This document shows, piece by piece, positions 4,810-30,631 of a stretch of 37,908 bases of DNA. The notes under the pieces were generated by a model. It had not been told where the DNA came from and did no database searches. It saw only the letters and a list, made by a program, of their open reading frames with translations. Numbering within the stretch: position 1 is the stretch's first letter; every line of letters starts with the position of its first letter. Both the position numbers and the translations under genes were made by a program. This stretch comes from Nostoc sp. T09. Lineage in GTDB: Bacteria > Cyanobacteriota > Cyanobacteriia > Cyanobacteriales > Nostocaceae. Location: assembly GCF_002154695.1 (NCBI RefSeq), contig NZ_MTAV01000199.1, positions 1 through 37,908 on the forward strand, read 5' to 3'.

Positions 4810-6081
4810 TTAAACTTCCTGTTTCGAGATAGTTGCGGATTTAATTACTTGAGCATCCTCCGTTAAGGAGTAACACAAGTTTTCGTACTGATTTAAAGCT
4901 TGCTCAAATGCATATTGTTCAACAGCATATTGGCGACTTTTATAACCTAGATTTTTGACTTTTTCCGGATTTTGGTACAAGTCTAGAATCGCATTTGCTA
5001 AAGTCTGGGGATCTTCGGGAGGAACAACAAATCCGCCACCACTTTGTCTAATAGCTCCTGCTGCCGTACCATTGTCAGGAACAGATGCAATCAATGCTCG
5101 CCCACTGGCAAGTAGTACTTGTATTTTTGAGGGCATATTGAAGGATACAACATTTTTCTTTTGCACAACTAAACCAACATCCGCAGCTGCTAACATCTGT
5201 GGCAAATGTTCTCGGGGTTGAAATGGTAGCAACAAAACATTATCTGCACCGTAATTAAGACACTCCTGTTGCAATCTCTGCAAACCTTTAGCCTCACCAG
5301 CGATCGCAAAAACAATGTCTGGAATATGGCGTAACATAGCAGCAGCTTTAATGACTGTTTCTAACCCTTGCGTTAAAGCAATATTTCCTGAGTATAAAAC
5401 TACAAATTTATCTTTGAGATTGTGTATTTCACGAAATTGGTTATCTTCTTTAGGCAAAGGGCGAATAAAATTCACATCAACCCAGTTAGGAATTTGCACA
5501 ATTTTGTGAGATGGTACACCTTTTCTTAGCAAATTCTCTACAAATCCATCAGCAATAACACTAATTGTAGTAGCACTTTGATAAGCAAACTTCTCTAATT
5601 TAGTAAAGAGCTTGATGAGAAATTTATTTTTCAATAACCCTACATGAATAGCTGCTTCCGGTAAAATATCTTGAAGGTTTAAAATCACAGGACAGTTACG
5701 CAACCATCCTAAAAGGGCAGCCGGGACGCAAACAGGTAGAGATGGTGATGTTGAAATAATCACATCTGGTCGCCAGCCTATGATTGCAGGCAAAAAACTG
5801 GTGACTACGAAACTAGCATCTAACAATATCCGATCAAGCAGGTTTGGTTGTGGGCGAATCCAAACATAACTGCGTTGAATTTGAACTCCATTTTTGTATT
5901 CGGTGAGATATAGCTTGCCCCGATAGCTTTGGTAAATTTGACGTTCAGGATAGTTCGGCATAGCCGTGACTACACGCACCTGATGTCCTCGCTTAACCAG
6001 TCCCTCTGCTAATTCCGTCATCAGCGGGGCAATACCAATTGGCTCTGGATAGTAGTTGTAGGAGTAAATCAAAATCTGCAT
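4810..6081 (-). CDS. Glycosyltransferase family 4 (WcaI-like)
   Basis: Retaining GT-B glycosyltransferase of 423 residues, expected to add a sugar to a lipid-linked saccharide in surface polysaccharide synthesis. The N-terminal half has the WcaI-type opening YSYNYYPEPIGIAPLMTELA, then VVTAMPNYPE and PDVIISTSPSLPV. The C-terminal Rossmann half starts near KFVVLYSGNIALTQGLE, continues with VFAIAGEAKGLQ, and has the nucleotide-sugar region FNMPSKIQVLLASGRALIAS. There is no strong Shine-Dalgarno sequence before the ATG. It stands alone on the minus strand with about 730 bp of empty DNA upstream, so it is not in a recognisable polysaccharide operon. Donor and acceptor cannot be predicted. Confidence 0.88.
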   Translation of the reverse strand: MQILIYSYNYYPEPIGIAPLMTELAEGLVKRGHQVRVVTAMPNYPERQIYQSYRGKLYLTEYKNGVQIQRSYVWIRPQPNLLDRILLDASFVVTSFLPAIIGWRPDVIISTSPSLPVCVPAALLGWLRNCPVILNLQDILPEAAIHVGLLKNKFLIKLFTKLEKFAYQSATTISVIADGFVENLLRKGVPSHKIVQIPNWVDVNFIRPLPKEDNQFREIHNLKDKFVVLYSGNIALTQGLETVIKAAAMLRHIPDIVFAIAGEAKGLQRLQQECLNYGADNVLLLPFQPREHLPQMLAAADVGLVVQKKNVVSFNMPSKIQVLLASGRALIASVPDNGTAAGAIRQSGGGFVVPPEDPQTLANAILDLYQNPEKVKNLGYKSRQYAVEQYAFEQALNQYENLCYSLTEDAQVIKSATISKQEV

Positions 6082-22019: not shown

Positions 22020-22967
22020 ATGGCTAGAGCAATCGAGCGAATTGATCGAGATATTGCACTGCTGAAAGAAGCGATAAAAGCGATCGCGGCAGAACTTCAA
22101 ACTGCTTATGCTAGTTATTTAAGCATGTTAGGGCAAGCCGTTCGCCAGCAGTTGATTCTGGCAACGTATCACCTATGTACCCAAGGTTATTCCGAAAATT
22201 TCCTGAGTTTGTCATTGAATCAGCGGCAACAATTGCAACAAGCCATCCGGAAGTTGGGACAACAAGCAGCTGAGCAGTTGCTGACTTTTATCAATAATGA
22301 AGAACATCAGGATGAGGTAGCAGAGGTAGCTGGAGAAGATGCAAGTGATGAGGTAGCGGAGGTAGCTGGAGAAGATGCGAGTAATGAGGGAGATGTAGGT
22401 GATGGGGAAGATGTGGATGATGACAAAAATCCACAATCTAAAATCCGTTTTGAAAAGTTTGCTATGGAGGGAAATCGTGCTGGCAAACTTCCCCTAATTA
22501 TAAAATTTACTGACCCTGCTAACCCGATGGAACTAGCAGCTTGGCAACAGAGCTTAGAAAAGTTAATCCAATATACTCTCAAAAAAGTCTCCCATGATGC
22601 CAATGTTTTGCTTCAAAAAATTAGTATTTTACCCAAAAAGTTACCAGAACCAATTTTAGAAGTAGCTGCGGCTGCATCAGAAGCATCTGCCGAAGTCATG
22701 CCAGGACCACCTAACTTATTAAACTTGGTAATTGAAATTGAAAATGAGCAGGATGCCCAGCAATCTGGACTAACAAGGCTGATAGCGATTAACCTACGGC
22801 TGAGCGAAATTGAATTTGCTGATTCTAAACTCTCCTCTGGGCGCAAACAAATTCGCAGTATCTTAGTTCAGTTAAATAAATTAGGGCAGGAGTATCAAAA
22901 AAAGCAGCGCGAACGCTCAATTGCTGAAGCTGAAGCAGCATGGCGTGCTATTTGGATTGATGATTAA
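22020..22967 (+). CDS. Conserved cyanobacterial protein with acidic tandem-repeat linker
   Basis: Soluble protein of 315 residues that I do not recognise as a characterised family. The N-terminal region (about 1-95) is helical, with IDRDIALLKEAIKAIAAELQ and LSLNQRQQLQQAIRKLGQQA. A very acidic, low-complexity linker (about 98-136) contains a 12-residue repeat, DEVAEVAGEDAS, twice. The C-terminal part (about 150-315) has PANPMELAAWQQSLEKLI and ends in a long charged helix, LGQEYQKKQRERSIAEAEAAW, probably a coiled coil. There is no signal peptide or membrane segment. It precedes recG on the same strand by 112 bp of repeat DNA. No function can be assigned. Confidence 0.75.
   Translation: MARAIERIDRDIALLKEAIKAIAAELQTAYASYLSMLGQAVRQQLILATYHLCTQGYSENFLSLSLNQRQQLQQAIRKLGQQAAEQLLTFINNEEHQDEVAEVAGEDASDEVAEVAGEDASNEGDVGDGEDVDDDKNPQSKIRFEKFAMEGNRAGKLPLIIKFTDPANPMELAAWQQSLEKLIQYTLKKVSHDANVLLQKISILPKKLPEPILEVAAAASEASAEVMPGPPNLLNLVIEIENEQDAQQSGLTRLIAINLRLSEIEFADSKLSSGRKQIRSILVQLNKLGQEYQKKQRERSIAEAEAAWRAIWIDD
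22311..22382 (+). repeat. Tandem 36-bp repeat inside the acidic-linker gene
   Basis: Two adjacent 36-bp copies (22311-22346 and 22347-22382) differ at only two positions, both silent. Each encodes DEVAEVAGEDAS. In-frame tandem duplication by slippage explains the extended linker; copy number may vary between strains. Confidence 0.9.
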
Positions 22968-25616: not shown

Positions 25617-26057
25617 ATGGTAATTCCGTTTACGGACAGAGAACTAGAGAAAGCTTGGCGAGAAAATAAATTTGCTTCCGAGAAGATACCACGAAGTAAT
25701 GCTCATCGGTTACTCTTATTTTATGCTGTTGAATGTGGTTTAAAAGCAATTTTGATGCGTAGACAGGGTAAAAATCGTTCAGATTTATGTACAGATATTT
25801 CTGAATGCCAACATGATGTCAACAAGCTACTAGATTGTTTGTCTGCTGGCGGAAGTTTAAAATTACCGGCACAATTAAGCATGAAGCCAATCAAATGTAA
25901 GAATGGCAATGACGAAAGGAAATTTACCCCTGGTGATATCAACCAAATGTGGCGTTATGGTGGATGTTGTACAGCAACAGGGATAACAGACGAATATTTA
26001 GAGAAGAAATTATTAGAAATAGTAAATTGGATAGATGGAGAACTTAGAAGACCATGA
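25617..26057 (+). CDS. Small HEPN-like protein paired with the KGGVGR-type NTPase
   Basis: Soluble protein of 146 residues. The segment NAHRLLLFYAVECGLKAILM (28-47) followed by HDVNKLLD (66-73) is the helix pattern of HEPN-superfamily proteins (A-x-E-x-x-L-K-A and H-D-hydrophobic). The catalytic R-x4-6-H of HEPN ribonucleases is not evident near the C terminus, so it may be a non-nucleolytic, partner-binding member. Its stop codon overlaps the ATG of the downstream gene (ATGA, 26054-26057), implying coupled translation and a stoichiometric partnership. It begins 45 bp after recG, possibly by read-through. The HEPN assignment is by eye and moderate. Confidence 0.6.
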   Translation: MVIPFTDRELEKAWRENKFASEKIPRSNAHRLLLFYAVECGLKAILMRRQGKNRSDLCTDISECQHDVNKLLDCLSAGGSLKLPAQLSMKPIKCKNGNDERKFTPGDINQMWRYGGCCTATGITDEYLEKKLLEIVNWIDGELRRP

Positions 26058-28822
26058 AATCTTTAAGGTTATTGACATGGCTTGATGTGAGAAGAACTAT
26101 TTCCCGCAAAACAAACTATGGTAGTAAATTCCCAGAGGGAGTAGTAAGAATTCGCTGTTTTTCTGATGCTTTGGAAATTGGTATTAGTAATGAAGAAAAC
26201 AGAGTTAATGCAGAGAATGCTTTAAAAGAATGGTTTGGCGATTGGTATCAGGAAGACGAGTCTATTATTGAGCTTGACCTTGGTAATGCTACATTGCCAG
26301 TAGAATTTATCCCTGAGGAAGCATCTACAATTGAGATTTTTATACGTCCATTTTGGGAAGAAATTGCTTATATTGACAGTGATATTGAAGAAGAAAGAGT
26401 CATTCAAAAAACGATTGTTTTTCCCCACGCATATACTAATAAACCTAATTTAATAGCTTTCTATTCTTTTAAAGGTGGTGTTGGTAGAACTCTAAATTTA
26501 GCAGCACATTATTTTGCTTTGCTAGATAGAGCTAAAGAATTAGATAAATCTATTACTATATTAGTTATCGATGCTGATTTAGAAGCACCAGGTCTTACTT
26601 ATTGGAATCGCATAGAAAAGCAACAAGCAGCAGTTTCTTTTATTGATTTTCTTGAAGTATATCACTATTCTCCTATTGAAAGAGAACAAACACTTTCATT
26701 ATTTGCTAGAGAAGTTAAAAAATCTCTGAAAAATGAAGGGAAGTCAAATGTTTATTTTTTACCTGCCTGTCTTGATGATGAACAGTTACTAGATACACCT
26801 ATCTTACCTGAAAATTTAGTCAGAAGTCCTGATGGAACTTGGGAGTGCGGTAATGCTATTCATCTTTTAGGTGAAGCTGTTGGTGCAGATTATGTGTTTA
26901 TTGATTTGAGGGCTGGCTTGAGTGAAATATCCAGTCCCATAATTTTTGATCCCAGAATTCAGCGTTTTTTAGTTACTACAATCAACGACCAGTCAGTAAG
27001 AGGTATCAGTCTTGTTCTTGAACAAATTGGTAGAGTCGCGCCACCAGAGGAAAGAGTAGATAACGAAAAATATTATGATCCCTCTTTAATCGTTAATATG
27101 CTAACACCAGAATTGAAATCATTACCAGCAGTAGAAGATGCATTGGTAAGATTGCAATCTGCTTATTTACAGTCAGATAAAGATAATATATATTCTACGA
27201 GGTTGGATAGTAAAGAAACTTATTTTGCCCAAGAATTACTTTATATTAATAACTGGGAAGAAGCACGCTCAAAATTAAATGCAACTTCAATGATGGCAAT
27301 TGCTAAAGAGTGGGCAGAAGGACAATTGCTAAGTAATATTATTGAGCAACCAAAGTCAAAATCTCCAGAAGATACAGATATACTTGCACAGGTTCGCCGA
27401 CTTAGAGATGTATGCCAGCTATACGAATATGCTGAAGAAGGACAAGGAGAAGACTTATTAGTAACAGAACCTTTGAAAAACTTAGCAACTAATTTTAGAA
27501 ATGAATTGCCTCGTGTAGTATCAATTGGAGCTAAGGGTGCAGGTAAAACTTTTAACTATATTCAGTTATCACGCTTTAAATATTGGGAAAGATTTTTAAA
27601 TCGTATAGATAATAAACAACAAGAACTAGATTCAATAACGCATATCTTTCCTATGCTACAATCTAGAAACATTAAAAATAATGCCAAGATTGTCATCAAC
27701 GAAGCTAGAAGTGAAGTCCTATCAGTCTTGGGTGATAATATTCCTGAGTTTTTGCCTTCGGAGTATGAGGGTAGAATTAAAAAAGCAATTGCGACTGCAA
27801 ATTGGAGTGAACCAGAATGGACAGAGTTTTGGATTAGTGAAATAGCAAGAGTTATAGGTATTAATCCTGACGCAGAAAGTTCTAAGAACCTTAGCAGTAT
27901 CAATAGTGAATTAAAAAACAAAGGATTACGAATTATATTTTTATTTGATGGTTTAGAAGATATTTTTCCCAATATTTCTTCTAATAATCAAGAGAAAATA
28001 GCATTAAAAGCTTTAATAGATGATCTGCCAAACAGATTATCGGAAATTAGACAGTCTAATCTTGGCGTAATAATTTTACTACGCCGTGATTTTTTGCGAT
28101 ACACAATCACTCAAAATTTAAAGCAATTTGAAAACCTTTACCGTTCTTACGATTTATCTTGGGATCAAGATTATTTTTTACGGTTAGTTTTTTGGATATG
28201 CAGCGAAGCCGAAGTCATAGGTGCAGAGAAAACGAAAATTGACAGTTTAAGCAAAGAGGATCTGACAGAGCAACTACAAAAGCTATGGGGTAAAAGGTTA
28301 GGATCAGATAATGCTAAAGAAGCTTATACAGCTTCTTGGATATTTGCGGCTTTAACAGATTTTAACGGCAGACTTCAGGCGCGAGATATTGTCCGCTTCT
28401 TGTACCATGCAGCAGATATTACAGTAAATAGAGCTAAAGAAGTGCAATTTGAAAAGTGGTCTACCAGCCGCCTTTTACCACCTGAAGCAATCCGCCGCGC
28501 ACTTAAACCATGTAGCGAAAAGAAAGTAGAAGAAGCGAAAGAGGAATATCCAACGTTTAAAGTATGGGTTGAGGACAGTCTTCCTAAATATACCCCTGAG
28601 CAACGGAAAATTCCATTTGCTGTAGAACAATTTGATATGGATCAACAAACGGTGAGAATGTTAGTAGATATGGGGGTTATCTACGAAGATACAGAAAAAG
28701 AAGATGTAGCGCGATTTTACATGCCAGAAATCTTCCGTGAGGGTTTAGGTTTTTCAGGTAAAGGAGCGAGACCTCGGATAGTGGTGTTAAAACGTAAGGT
28801 ATTGGGGAAAGGGATTTTATAA
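26054..28822 (+). CDS. Dual P-loop NTPase: KGGVGR-type ParA-like module plus STAND/AAA-like module
   Basis: Large soluble protein of 922 residues; function unknown. Residues 1-125 form a domain I do not recognise. The next module is ParA/MinD-like (SIMIBI class) with a deviant Walker A, SFKGGVGRT (K140 to T146): the signature Lys K140 is kept but the usual phosphate-contacting Lys is Arg145. It has VIDADLEAPGLT (171-182), YVFIDLRAGLSEIS (280-293) and LVTTINDQSVRGI. A second, classical P-loop follows, GAKGAGKT (492-499), with Walker B IIFLFDGLED (627-636) and a VIILLRRDFLR strand (672-682) as in STAND/KAP-type ATPases. The C-terminal 240 residues look helical, with a possible winged-helix end (QQTVRMLVDMGVIYED). 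One 60-base row in it (27601-27660) has 18 G+C against 27 in a recG row (24361-24420). It ends just before the convergent ABC-2 permease gene. Confidence 0.75.
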   Translation: MKSLRLLTWLDVRRTISRKTNYGSKFPEGVVRIRCFSDALEIGISNEENRVNAENALKEWFGDWYQEDESIIELDLGNATLPVEFIPEEASTIEIFIRPFWEEIAYIDSDIEEERVIQKTIVFPHAYTNKPNLIAFYSFKGGVGRTLNLAAHYFALLDRAKELDKSITILVIDADLEAPGLTYWNRIEKQQAAVSFIDFLEVYHYSPIEREQTLSLFAREVKKSLKNEGKSNVYFLPACLDDEQLLDTPILPENLVRSPDGTWECGNAIHLLGEAVGADYVFIDLRAGLSEISSPIIFDPRIQRFLVTTINDQSVRGISLVLEQIGRVAPPEERVDNEKYYDPSLIVNMLTPELKSLPAVEDALVRLQSAYLQSDKDNIYSTRLDSKETYFAQELLYINNWEEARSKLNATSMMAIAKEWAEGQLLSNIIEQPKSKSPEDTDILAQVRRLRDVCQLYEYAEEGQGEDLLVTEPLKNLATNFRNELPRVVSIGAKGAGKTFNYIQLSRFKYWERFLNRIDNKQQELDSITHIFPMLQSRNIKNNAKIVINEARSEVLSVLGDNIPEFLPSEYEGRIKKAIATANWSEPEWTEFWISEIARVIGINPDAESSKNLSSINSELKNKGLRIIFLFDGLEDIFPNISSNNQEKIALKALIDDLPNRLSEIRQSNLGVIILLRRDFLRYTITQNLKQFENLYRSYDLSWDQDYFLRLVFWICSEAEVIGAEKTKIDSLSKEDLTEQLQKLWGKRLGSDNAKEAYTASWIFAALTDFNGRLQARDIVRFLYHAADITVNRAKEVQFEKWSTSRLLPPEAIRRALKPCSEKKVEEAKEEYPTFKVWVEDSLPKYTPEQRKIPFAVEQFDMDQQTVRMLVDMGVIYEDTEKEDVARFYMPEIFREGLGFSGKGARPRIVVLKRKVLGKGIL

Positions 28823-30016: not shown

Positions 30017-30631
30017 TCAGGTGCTTAGTATACCAACTAGAATTTTAATTAACTCAGGTAATTCTTCTGGTACTCGATATAATTTAAAGTCTTCAGTTAT
30101 CTGTTTCTCTTGACGTTGGTAGGTAACAAATCGCCAATCTTCACCCGTAGTTACTGCACCGTAAAGGATTGGTGTATCTGAATTTATCCACTGATCAAGT
30201 GCAATTAATTCAACTGCTAATTGTGTAAACCCTCTACTTAAATCTGCTTGTTTAGCTTTAATTACTAACAAACCCTTACCTTTATCAATGTAGTAATCTA
30301 AGCTACCTTTGAATTGCTCGCTAACATTAATAGAATACTCAATATTTAATTGGGTTTGTGCGATTTCACAGACTTCTAGTAGTATAGGTGCGATAATTGC
30401 TTGTTTACGTGCATCTTCGCTCAGTAACTTGACACGTCGGAGGTTACGTTCAATCACTCGCTGTAATTCTTCGATGCGGTTGGGGGTAGATTCTGCTATT
30501 GGTAATTGCAACCGTTCACGTTCATACTTACAACCTAGTTCAGCCAGAATATCTTCTGGGGAAAATGGAAGTTCAAAATATTTGCTAAATGTATAGCTTT
30601 GTCCGGGTTGAATAATTCGAGGACGACTCAT
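30017..30631 (-). CDS. PD-(D/E)XK-like hypothetical protein inside the exporter operon
   Basis: Soluble protein of 204 residues of a type common in cyanobacteria and usually left hypothetical. It has SYTFSKYFEL near the N terminus, a basic helix (RIEELQRVIERNLRRVKLLS), then a core resembling the restriction-endonuclease fold: FKGSLDYYIDKGKGLLVIKA (108-126) and FTQLAVELIALDQW. D112 would be the first acid; the D/E-x-K position reads K125-A-K127, so the usual glutamate is lysine and the site is probably inactive. It lies between two ABC-2 permease genes, 28 bp from one and 69 bp from the other, so it is likely co-transcribed with an exporter it has no obvious link to. Confidence 0.6.
   Translation of the reverse strand: MSRPRIIQPGQSYTFSKYFELPFSPEDILAELGCKYERERLQLPIAESTPNRIEELQRVIERNLRRVKLLSEDARKQAIIAPILLEVCEIAQTQLNIEYSINVSEQFKGSLDYYIDKGKGLLVIKAKQADLSRGFTQLAVELIALDQWINSDTPILYGAVTTGEDWRFVTYQRQEKQITEDFKLYRVPEELPELIKILVGILST

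Follow-up and report, generated by a model that had tools for sequence, protein, structure and literature searches.

A HEPN-like protein and a fused KGGVGR/Sll1717-like ATPase encoded beside recG in Nostoc: a predicted biological-conflict module with C-terminal counterparts in Microcystis phages

The window analyzed here is a stretch of 37,908 nucleotides from Nostoc sp. T09 (NCBI RefSeq assembly GCF_002154695.1, contig NZ_MTAV01000199.1, positions 1 to 37,908), which belongs to a genome of 8.25 Mb. Directly downstream of recG, it carries a small gene for a HEPN-like protein of 146 residues and a large gene for a 922-residue protein, in which a KGGVGR-type ParA-like NTPase is joined to a second P-loop ATPase. 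An earlier sequence-only reading had placed both open reading frames, their ATGA overlap, and their position right after recG, and all of these were borne out. The overlap would couple the translation of the two genes. The same reading had called the pair richer in A+T than its neighbors. The G+C contents (small gene 0.370, large gene 0.353, window 0.413) bear this out on the upstream side only (recG 0.455), because the permease gene that follows has a value of 0.369. In a scan of named loci, the closest matches came from Nostoc sp. JL33 (79%) and Nostoc sp. NMS7 (78%).

Table. Features of the gene pair in window coordinates; residue numbers refer to the respective protein.
Feature	Positions	Strand	Evidence
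Small gene, 146 aa, HEPN-like protein (PDC-M28A-like)	25617..26057	+	Open reading frame, model, Foldseek, PADLOC
Ex3K motif, E39 and K43 (65/65)	25731..25745	+	Alignment of homologues
His66 (65/65)	25812..25814	+	Alignment of homologues
Arg113-Tyr114 (65/65)	25953..25958	+	Alignment; compared with PF05168 proteins
ATGA stop/start overlap, 4 bases	26054..26057	+	
Large gene, 922 aa, fused KGGVGR NTPase and Sll1717-like ATPase (PDC-M28B + PDC-M28C)	26054..28822	+	
KGGVGR ParA/MinD-like domain, residues 131-325	26444..27028	+	NCBIfam; Foldseek 3ea0_A ParA, E 1.6e-6
KGGVGRT motif, residues 140-146 (K140, R145, T146 in 65/65)	26471..26491	+	
Linker, residues 331-440; main recombination breakpoint, near the gene boundary of the split form	27044..27373	+	
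C-module, Sll1717-like P-loop ATPase, residues 441-922	27374..28819	+	
Counterpart of the stand-alone Microcystis phage fragment, about residues 473-699	27470..28150	+	
Second Walker A GAKGAGKT, residues 492-499	27527..27550	+	
Counterpart of the segment replaced in Microcystis host allele L327, residues 536-700	27659..28153	+	dS comparison of alleles
Second Walker B FDGLED, residues 631-636	27944..27961	+	

The structure predicted for the small protein (pLDDT 94.8) was compared with the PDB using Foldseek. Ranks 1, 3, and 5 were structures named HEPN (2hsb, 1wol, and 4nqf), and rank 2 was 1ufb, which we take to be HEPN as well. The top ranks had probabilities of 0.75–0.87 and E-values of 0.2–0.5, and no match reached 0.001. 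The Pfam search yielded no match for the window protein, and for its 65 homologues no HEPN family was present among the 25 families listed of 31. Searching PDB sequences with the profile of the small protein gave 0.09 as the best E-value, and hhalign of this profile against an alignment of 26 PF05168 proteins gave a probability of 7%. The profile aligned with L242, a divergent PF05168-positive protein (37.3 bits; cut-off 22), at a probability of 91.5% across 41 columns, and the link to PF05168 runs only through this member and its relatives. Genes of the L242 type hold the same place, immediately upstream of paralogous large genes. In the regions around the L242-type relatives and the PDC-M28A matches (see below), 18 of 20 cases had a small gene adjoining a large gene of the KGGVGR type or a relative of it, the exceptions being L288, at a contig end, and L297.

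Alignments of 65 rows each were prepared for both proteins; near-duplicates were excluded, as were copies with truncations or frameshifts (e.g., L106, L114, L143, and L151). Residues Y36, E39, G41, K43, H66, R113, and Y114 of the small protein are invariant. E39 and K43 form an Ex3K pair, and an Ex3[KR] motif is described for many HEPN families in PMC3710099. In our reading of the alignment, R113 takes the place of the R in Rx4-6H, the canonical HEPN catalytic motif. For PF05168, PMC3710099 describes a subset with D replacing the H and another conserved H elsewhere; with an invariant H66 and no Rx4-6H, the small protein seems to us to fit this subset. The HEPN pattern seen by the sequence-only reading draws support from the modelled fold, the Pfam-positive sister subgroup, and the motifs in common. 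Pfam itself gave no direct match, and we describe the protein as HEPN-like.

The large protein combines a deviant ParA-like NTPase with a second P-loop, as had been suggested. NCBIfam AAA_KGGVGR (NF047398) matched residues 131–325 with an E-value of 1.4e-46 and 159.2 bits, above its cut-off of 90. ATPase_Sll1717 (NF047389) matched residues 488–834 with an E-value of 5.9e-19; at 68.5 bits against a cut-off of 75, the C-module resembles this family but is not filed as a member. The model of the protein (pLDDT 87.5, pTM 0.57) retrieved ParA/MinD structures in Foldseek. The likeness of the C-module to BREX consists of a single row, the BREX complex chain 9zll_B at rank 49 (E = 2.9e-4, TMt = 0.29). 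The PDB search with the large-protein profile returned ParA/MinD-type sequences alone, through the P-loop of the first domain. Invariant residues were K140, R145, T146, D173, D175, and D284 in the ParA-like part and G492, K494, G495, G497, K498, T499, D632, R677, and D679 in the second ATPase. ParA proteins have a P-loop Lys where the first Walker A of the window protein has Arg; the signature lysine is kept. One fused paralogous subfamily (L281–L283, L290, L293, and L294), found beside a PF05168-positive L242-type HEPN gene, reads RGGVGRS for KGGVGRT. There, the signature lysine is lost and the second P-loop is intact.

The large protein also matched two PADLOC models, PDC-M28B (E = 1.2e-12) and PDC-M28C (E = 1.8e-9). 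PDC-M28A matched the small protein weakly (E = 0.019), and 31 of its 65 homologues matched at an E-value of 1 or better (best 5.2e-4). A split layout was found at L286, L287, L289, and L296, where HEPN, KGGVGR, and Sll1717-like proteins are encoded by three overlapping or abutting genes. The KGGVGR proteins of this layout have 458–473 residues and the Sll1717-like ones 504–528, and the small genes match PDC-M28A at 9.2e-10 to 2.5e-13. Judged by these matches, the window pair appears to be a fused form of the PADLOC candidate PDC-M28.

The pair is accessory, often lost, and widespread. The full-length large gene (E below 1e-100) was present in 39 of the 291 genomes sampled within the order, and a small-gene match at an E-value of 0.001 was present in 36 of these (missing in G008, G084, and G215). 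The best 80 named loci were kept from the scan; they came from cyanobacteria, proteobacteria, actinobacteria, archaea, Clostridia, Bacteroidota, and others, and single host names may be wrong because many of these loci are metagenome bins. The small gene lay just upstream of the large one, as a reading frame ending within 700 bp, in 76 of the 80 loci (L169 among them). Of the exceptions, L109 and L116 have a truncated large gene, L156 lies at a contig edge with a small gene on another contig of the genome, and L162 is the fourth. Among the 75 loci listed, 50 offer the large gene a start codon that shares four bases with the end of the small gene. The identities of the small and large proteins correlated across 54 loci (Mantel r = 0.84, 0 of 2000 permutations; the out-of-frame large-gene row L003/L092 was left out), a result that common descent could produce by itself. 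The proposed association of the two genes was upheld, the large gene seldom occurring without the small one, and so was the expectation that the pair varies between close species. It was found in two of eight genomes of the window's genus, in 8 of 16 of another genus, and in 5 of 12 of the genus of G262 (taken as Microcystis), where one more genome holds a relic. Relics of the large gene were detected in G239, G190, and G221. The small gene of L056 (G261; 55% over residues 1–120), in a genome lacking a full-length large gene, may be a solitary remnant. A paralogous small–large pair lies on a plasmid of Nostoc sp. UHCC 0870 (L204, 5836–8948), close to hsdR and some kb away from SMC-family and SbcD-type genes.

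In G330, G333, and G292, the recG gene is 94% identical to that of the window and runs straight into the permease that follows the pair there. Several other Nostocales carry the pair beside recG (G265, G225, and G220, 1.1 kb away; L092, L095–L098, L105, and L114). Together with the empty sites, this makes it likely that the place beside recG has been held for long and the pair lost from it repeatedly. In G494, the recG C-terminus is 96.7% and the permease 94% identical, as against only 87% and 83% for the pair. In L094, a relic of the large-gene C-terminus (4950–5087) lies between recG and an intact pair.

The conserved place beside recG, and the conserved motif residues of both ATPases, would also fit a regulator outside biological conflict, with a HEPN nucleotide sensor serving a ParA-like cellular switch tied to recG or to the neighboring permease. 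We consider this highly improbable. Homologues of recG and the permease persist without the pair in three close relatives, and elsewhere most loci show neither gene beside it. A search for a third conserved gene found no neighbor cluster at more than 7 of the 80 loci, the largest being the tsf/recG block. Moreover, the plasmid paralogue and a prophage copy (see below) exist.

Comparison of related alleles showed that modules have been swapped. In L007 and L010, from one genus, the small protein (0.92) and the KGGVGR domain (0.97) are shared, and the C-module is only 0.60–0.66 identical; the flanking DNA stands at 0.84–0.92. L009 and L012 repeat this pattern. L010 and L012 share the C-module (0.98–0.99) but not the small protein (0.55) or the KGGVGR domain (0.83). 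In another genus, the small proteins of L006 and L008 differ (0.66), and the large ones are 0.98–1.00 identical outside the linker. These values reflect exchange of modules by recombination. The main breakpoint is the linker, which corresponds roughly to the gene boundary of the split form, and another lies at the gene junction. A smaller replacement was observed in one of five Microcystis host alleles, L327, which stands apart from the remaining four over residues 536–700 (identity 0.60–0.71, synonymous divergence (dS) 0.92–1.78), as compared with dS values of 0–0.15 over residues 1–535 and 0.10–0.28 over residues 701–922. Residues 536–700 have thus been replaced by recombination; the segment falls almost wholly inside the region carried by the phages described next. 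Among the alleles L323–L326, the nonsynonymous divergence (dN) exceeded dS in segments such as 801–922 for some pairs, a possible sign of positive selection that depends on few changes.

Phage and viral collections yielded both the pair and pieces of it. In L307, a viral contig of a P2-like prophage with terminase, major head protein, and integrase recognized by PHROGs, the pair lies between portal and gpA. PMC9122126 describes this cos-proximal gpA–portal site as a hotspot of anti-phage systems in P2-like phages of E. coli. A stand-alone piece of the C-module was found as Mic1_05 of Microcystis phage Mic1, annotated as "ParA family" (tblastn 3e-38, profile E-value 7e-56), and Mic1 was the only matching phage record among 50,697. 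Ten viral contigs carry the fragment as well. Five of them (L308, cut by the contig end, and L310–L313) have Mic1-like neighbor genes, which are 91.4–97.5% identical where whole. The other five (L314–L318) all encode the same fragment protein and have another background, which includes ribonucleotide reductase genes. Mic1 and the ten contigs amount to six distinct fragment proteins, five of which are complete. Walker A is lost in four of these five (GEGVAENT, GEGVAENI, GADVAEYT, and GEDVAKKT), and in the same four R677 is replaced by H. The fifth, L314, retains R677 and reads GAKDAGKT at Walker A; in the partial L308, this motif is GAKGAGKT. In a comparison with nine host proteins, L314 was closest to three Microcystis alleles (0.81–0.82), and the fourth gave 0.66.

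The fragment could be a captured host relic in drift, or a phage gene of unrelated role, rather than a counter-defence gene. The degenerate Walker A and the deletions in the Mic1-like copies would agree with this, as would the lower conservation of the fragment between Mic1 and its relatives (BLAST 67–69% with gaps counted; 0.80–0.81 over aligned codons) compared with most of its neighbors (91–98%). However, the frames are open in every copy and nearly share an end point. All five distinct complete proteins retain P486, W589, D632, G633, D679, and Q691, a set that takes in Walker B, and the fragment occurs in two viral backgrounds. The dN/dS values between phage copies were 0.30–0.44, so the fragment is apparently under purifying selection. 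We regard drift or an unrelated role as possible, though rather doubtful. We are evenly divided on the following proposal: the Microcystis phages captured the P-loop core of the C-module, mostly lost its ATP-binding motif, and keep it as a dominant-negative decoy, and the hosts answer by swapping residues 536–700 and whole modules. If true, this would mark the system as an arms-race target ahead of any bench test.

On this evidence, we predict that the pair is an accessory biological-conflict module, most likely directed against phages, and consider this role probable. The effector is probably the small HEPN-like protein, which would be made together with the KGGVGR ParA-like switch ATPase and probably restrained by it. 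The C-terminal STAND/BrxC-like ATPase would then sense a phage product or a phage-made state, and an ATP-dependent rearrangement might free the HEPN protein to attack RNA or stop growth in another way. The phage fragment, acting as a decoy, may poison assembly of the sensor ATPase.

Several observations weigh against this prediction. An H at +5 to +7 from R113 is present in just 3 of the 65 small proteins, and the HEPN protein could therefore bind nucleotides or RNA without cutting. The fixed place beside recG in several Nostocales is unlike that of a freely mobile island gene. Copies in phages are few, with one viral contig and no phage record carrying the pair. PDC systems are described as unvalidated candidates in PMC12988326 and PMC11811056, and our literature search found no paper naming PDC-M28 or KGGVGR and no experiment on the system. 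The neighborhood gave no clear defence-island signal either. A matched control at 1e-20 drew on 19 loci whose contigs are long. The test set, 127 of the 128 genes within 4 kb, matched 36 PADLOC models, 25 of which were listed, and the control set, 125 of 128 distant genes on the same contigs, matched 21 (the longest genes were dropped), with few proteins in either set. A separate scan at 1e-10 covered 124 of 335 non-cyanobacterial neighbors within 5 kb at 49 loci; it returned 195 PADLOC models, counted as models and not as proteins, and owing to its different threshold it is not comparable with the control. The 25 models listed of these 195 include type I methylases, REase_I, DpdF, Cas3c, JetA, GajB, PsyrT, and DrmMI. 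The 193 cyanobacterial neighbors were outside the PADLOC neighborhood scans. Overall, the conflict reading first put forward from the sequence is supported by the pairing, the variability, and the HEPN label, but not by the fixed recG locus or by the matched control, in which defence genes showed no clear enrichment, and the role remains a predicted one.

A toxin–antitoxin or addiction pair would account for part of the same evidence: a HEPN RNase toxin held by a ParA-like ATPase antitoxin, with no sensing of phage. Such a function was proposed in PMC3710099 for dyads of HEPN (MAE_18760 family) and ParA/Soj. The small gene comes first, overlaps the large one, and is accessory, and a paralogous pair sits on a Nostoc plasmid. 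Nevertheless, a second ATPase, some 480 residues long, is more than an antitoxin needs, both relics and empty sites are seen, a phage-borne C-module fragment would be unexpected, and the canonical HEPN catalytic motif is missing. Hence we judge an addiction pair unlikely.

For the anti-phage module that we favor, these results supply the parts, suggest how they are likely to work together, and propose a natural inhibitor. The candidate defence system concerned is widespread, and no function has been described for it. A direct test of what KGGVGR ATPases do becomes possible. Should the fragment be a decoy, it would exemplify counter-defence in which a defence ATPase domain is captured and disabled, and it would indicate the residues at which phage and host make contact.

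Two further genes of the window are worth recording. A 315-residue protein is encoded at 22020–22967, between tsf and recG, in an order kept in several Nostocales; it had no credible family match. A 204-residue gene at 30017–30631, between two ABC permease genes, had no Pfam or NCBIfam match; it was found in the G333 stretch and is absent from those of G330 and G292.

The sequence-only reading knew of no named system with this exact pair. That statement has to be revised, since PADLOC PDC-M28 already lists a candidate with the same three parts, namely the small M28A, the KGGVGR NTPase M28B, and the Sll1717-like ATPase M28C. The window differs in fusing B and C, and the three-gene form of PDC-M28 is itself deduced from the three PADLOC models. 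The predicted toxin–antitoxin dyads of PMC3710099 likewise place a HEPN (MAE_18760) gene beside a gene for a ParA-like (ParA/Soj) ATPase. In contrast to them, as far as their description allows the comparison, the window adds a C-terminal ATPase, and its small protein lacks a Pfam match. The DUF499/Hma BREX-related systems described in PMC12839542 also tie HEPN to an ORC/STAND-type ATPase, in their case as a HEPN-fused BrxC-like protein. The 922-residue protein has no DUF499 match and an added ParA-like domain, and the loci of the pair do not share a neighbor cluster beyond the 7 of 80 given above. Hma/DUF499 systems also have methylase and helicase partners; of the neighbor clusters of the pair, the tsf/recG block is the one that was identified. 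Finally, PMC9122126 describes PARIS (the ATPase AriA with AriB) of P4-like satellites, an ATPase and its partner encoded by two genes or one fusion, and old/tin of the P2-like hotspot, the same gpA–portal site that holds the pair in L307. The ATPase and partner families of PARIS and old/tin are other than those of the window pair.

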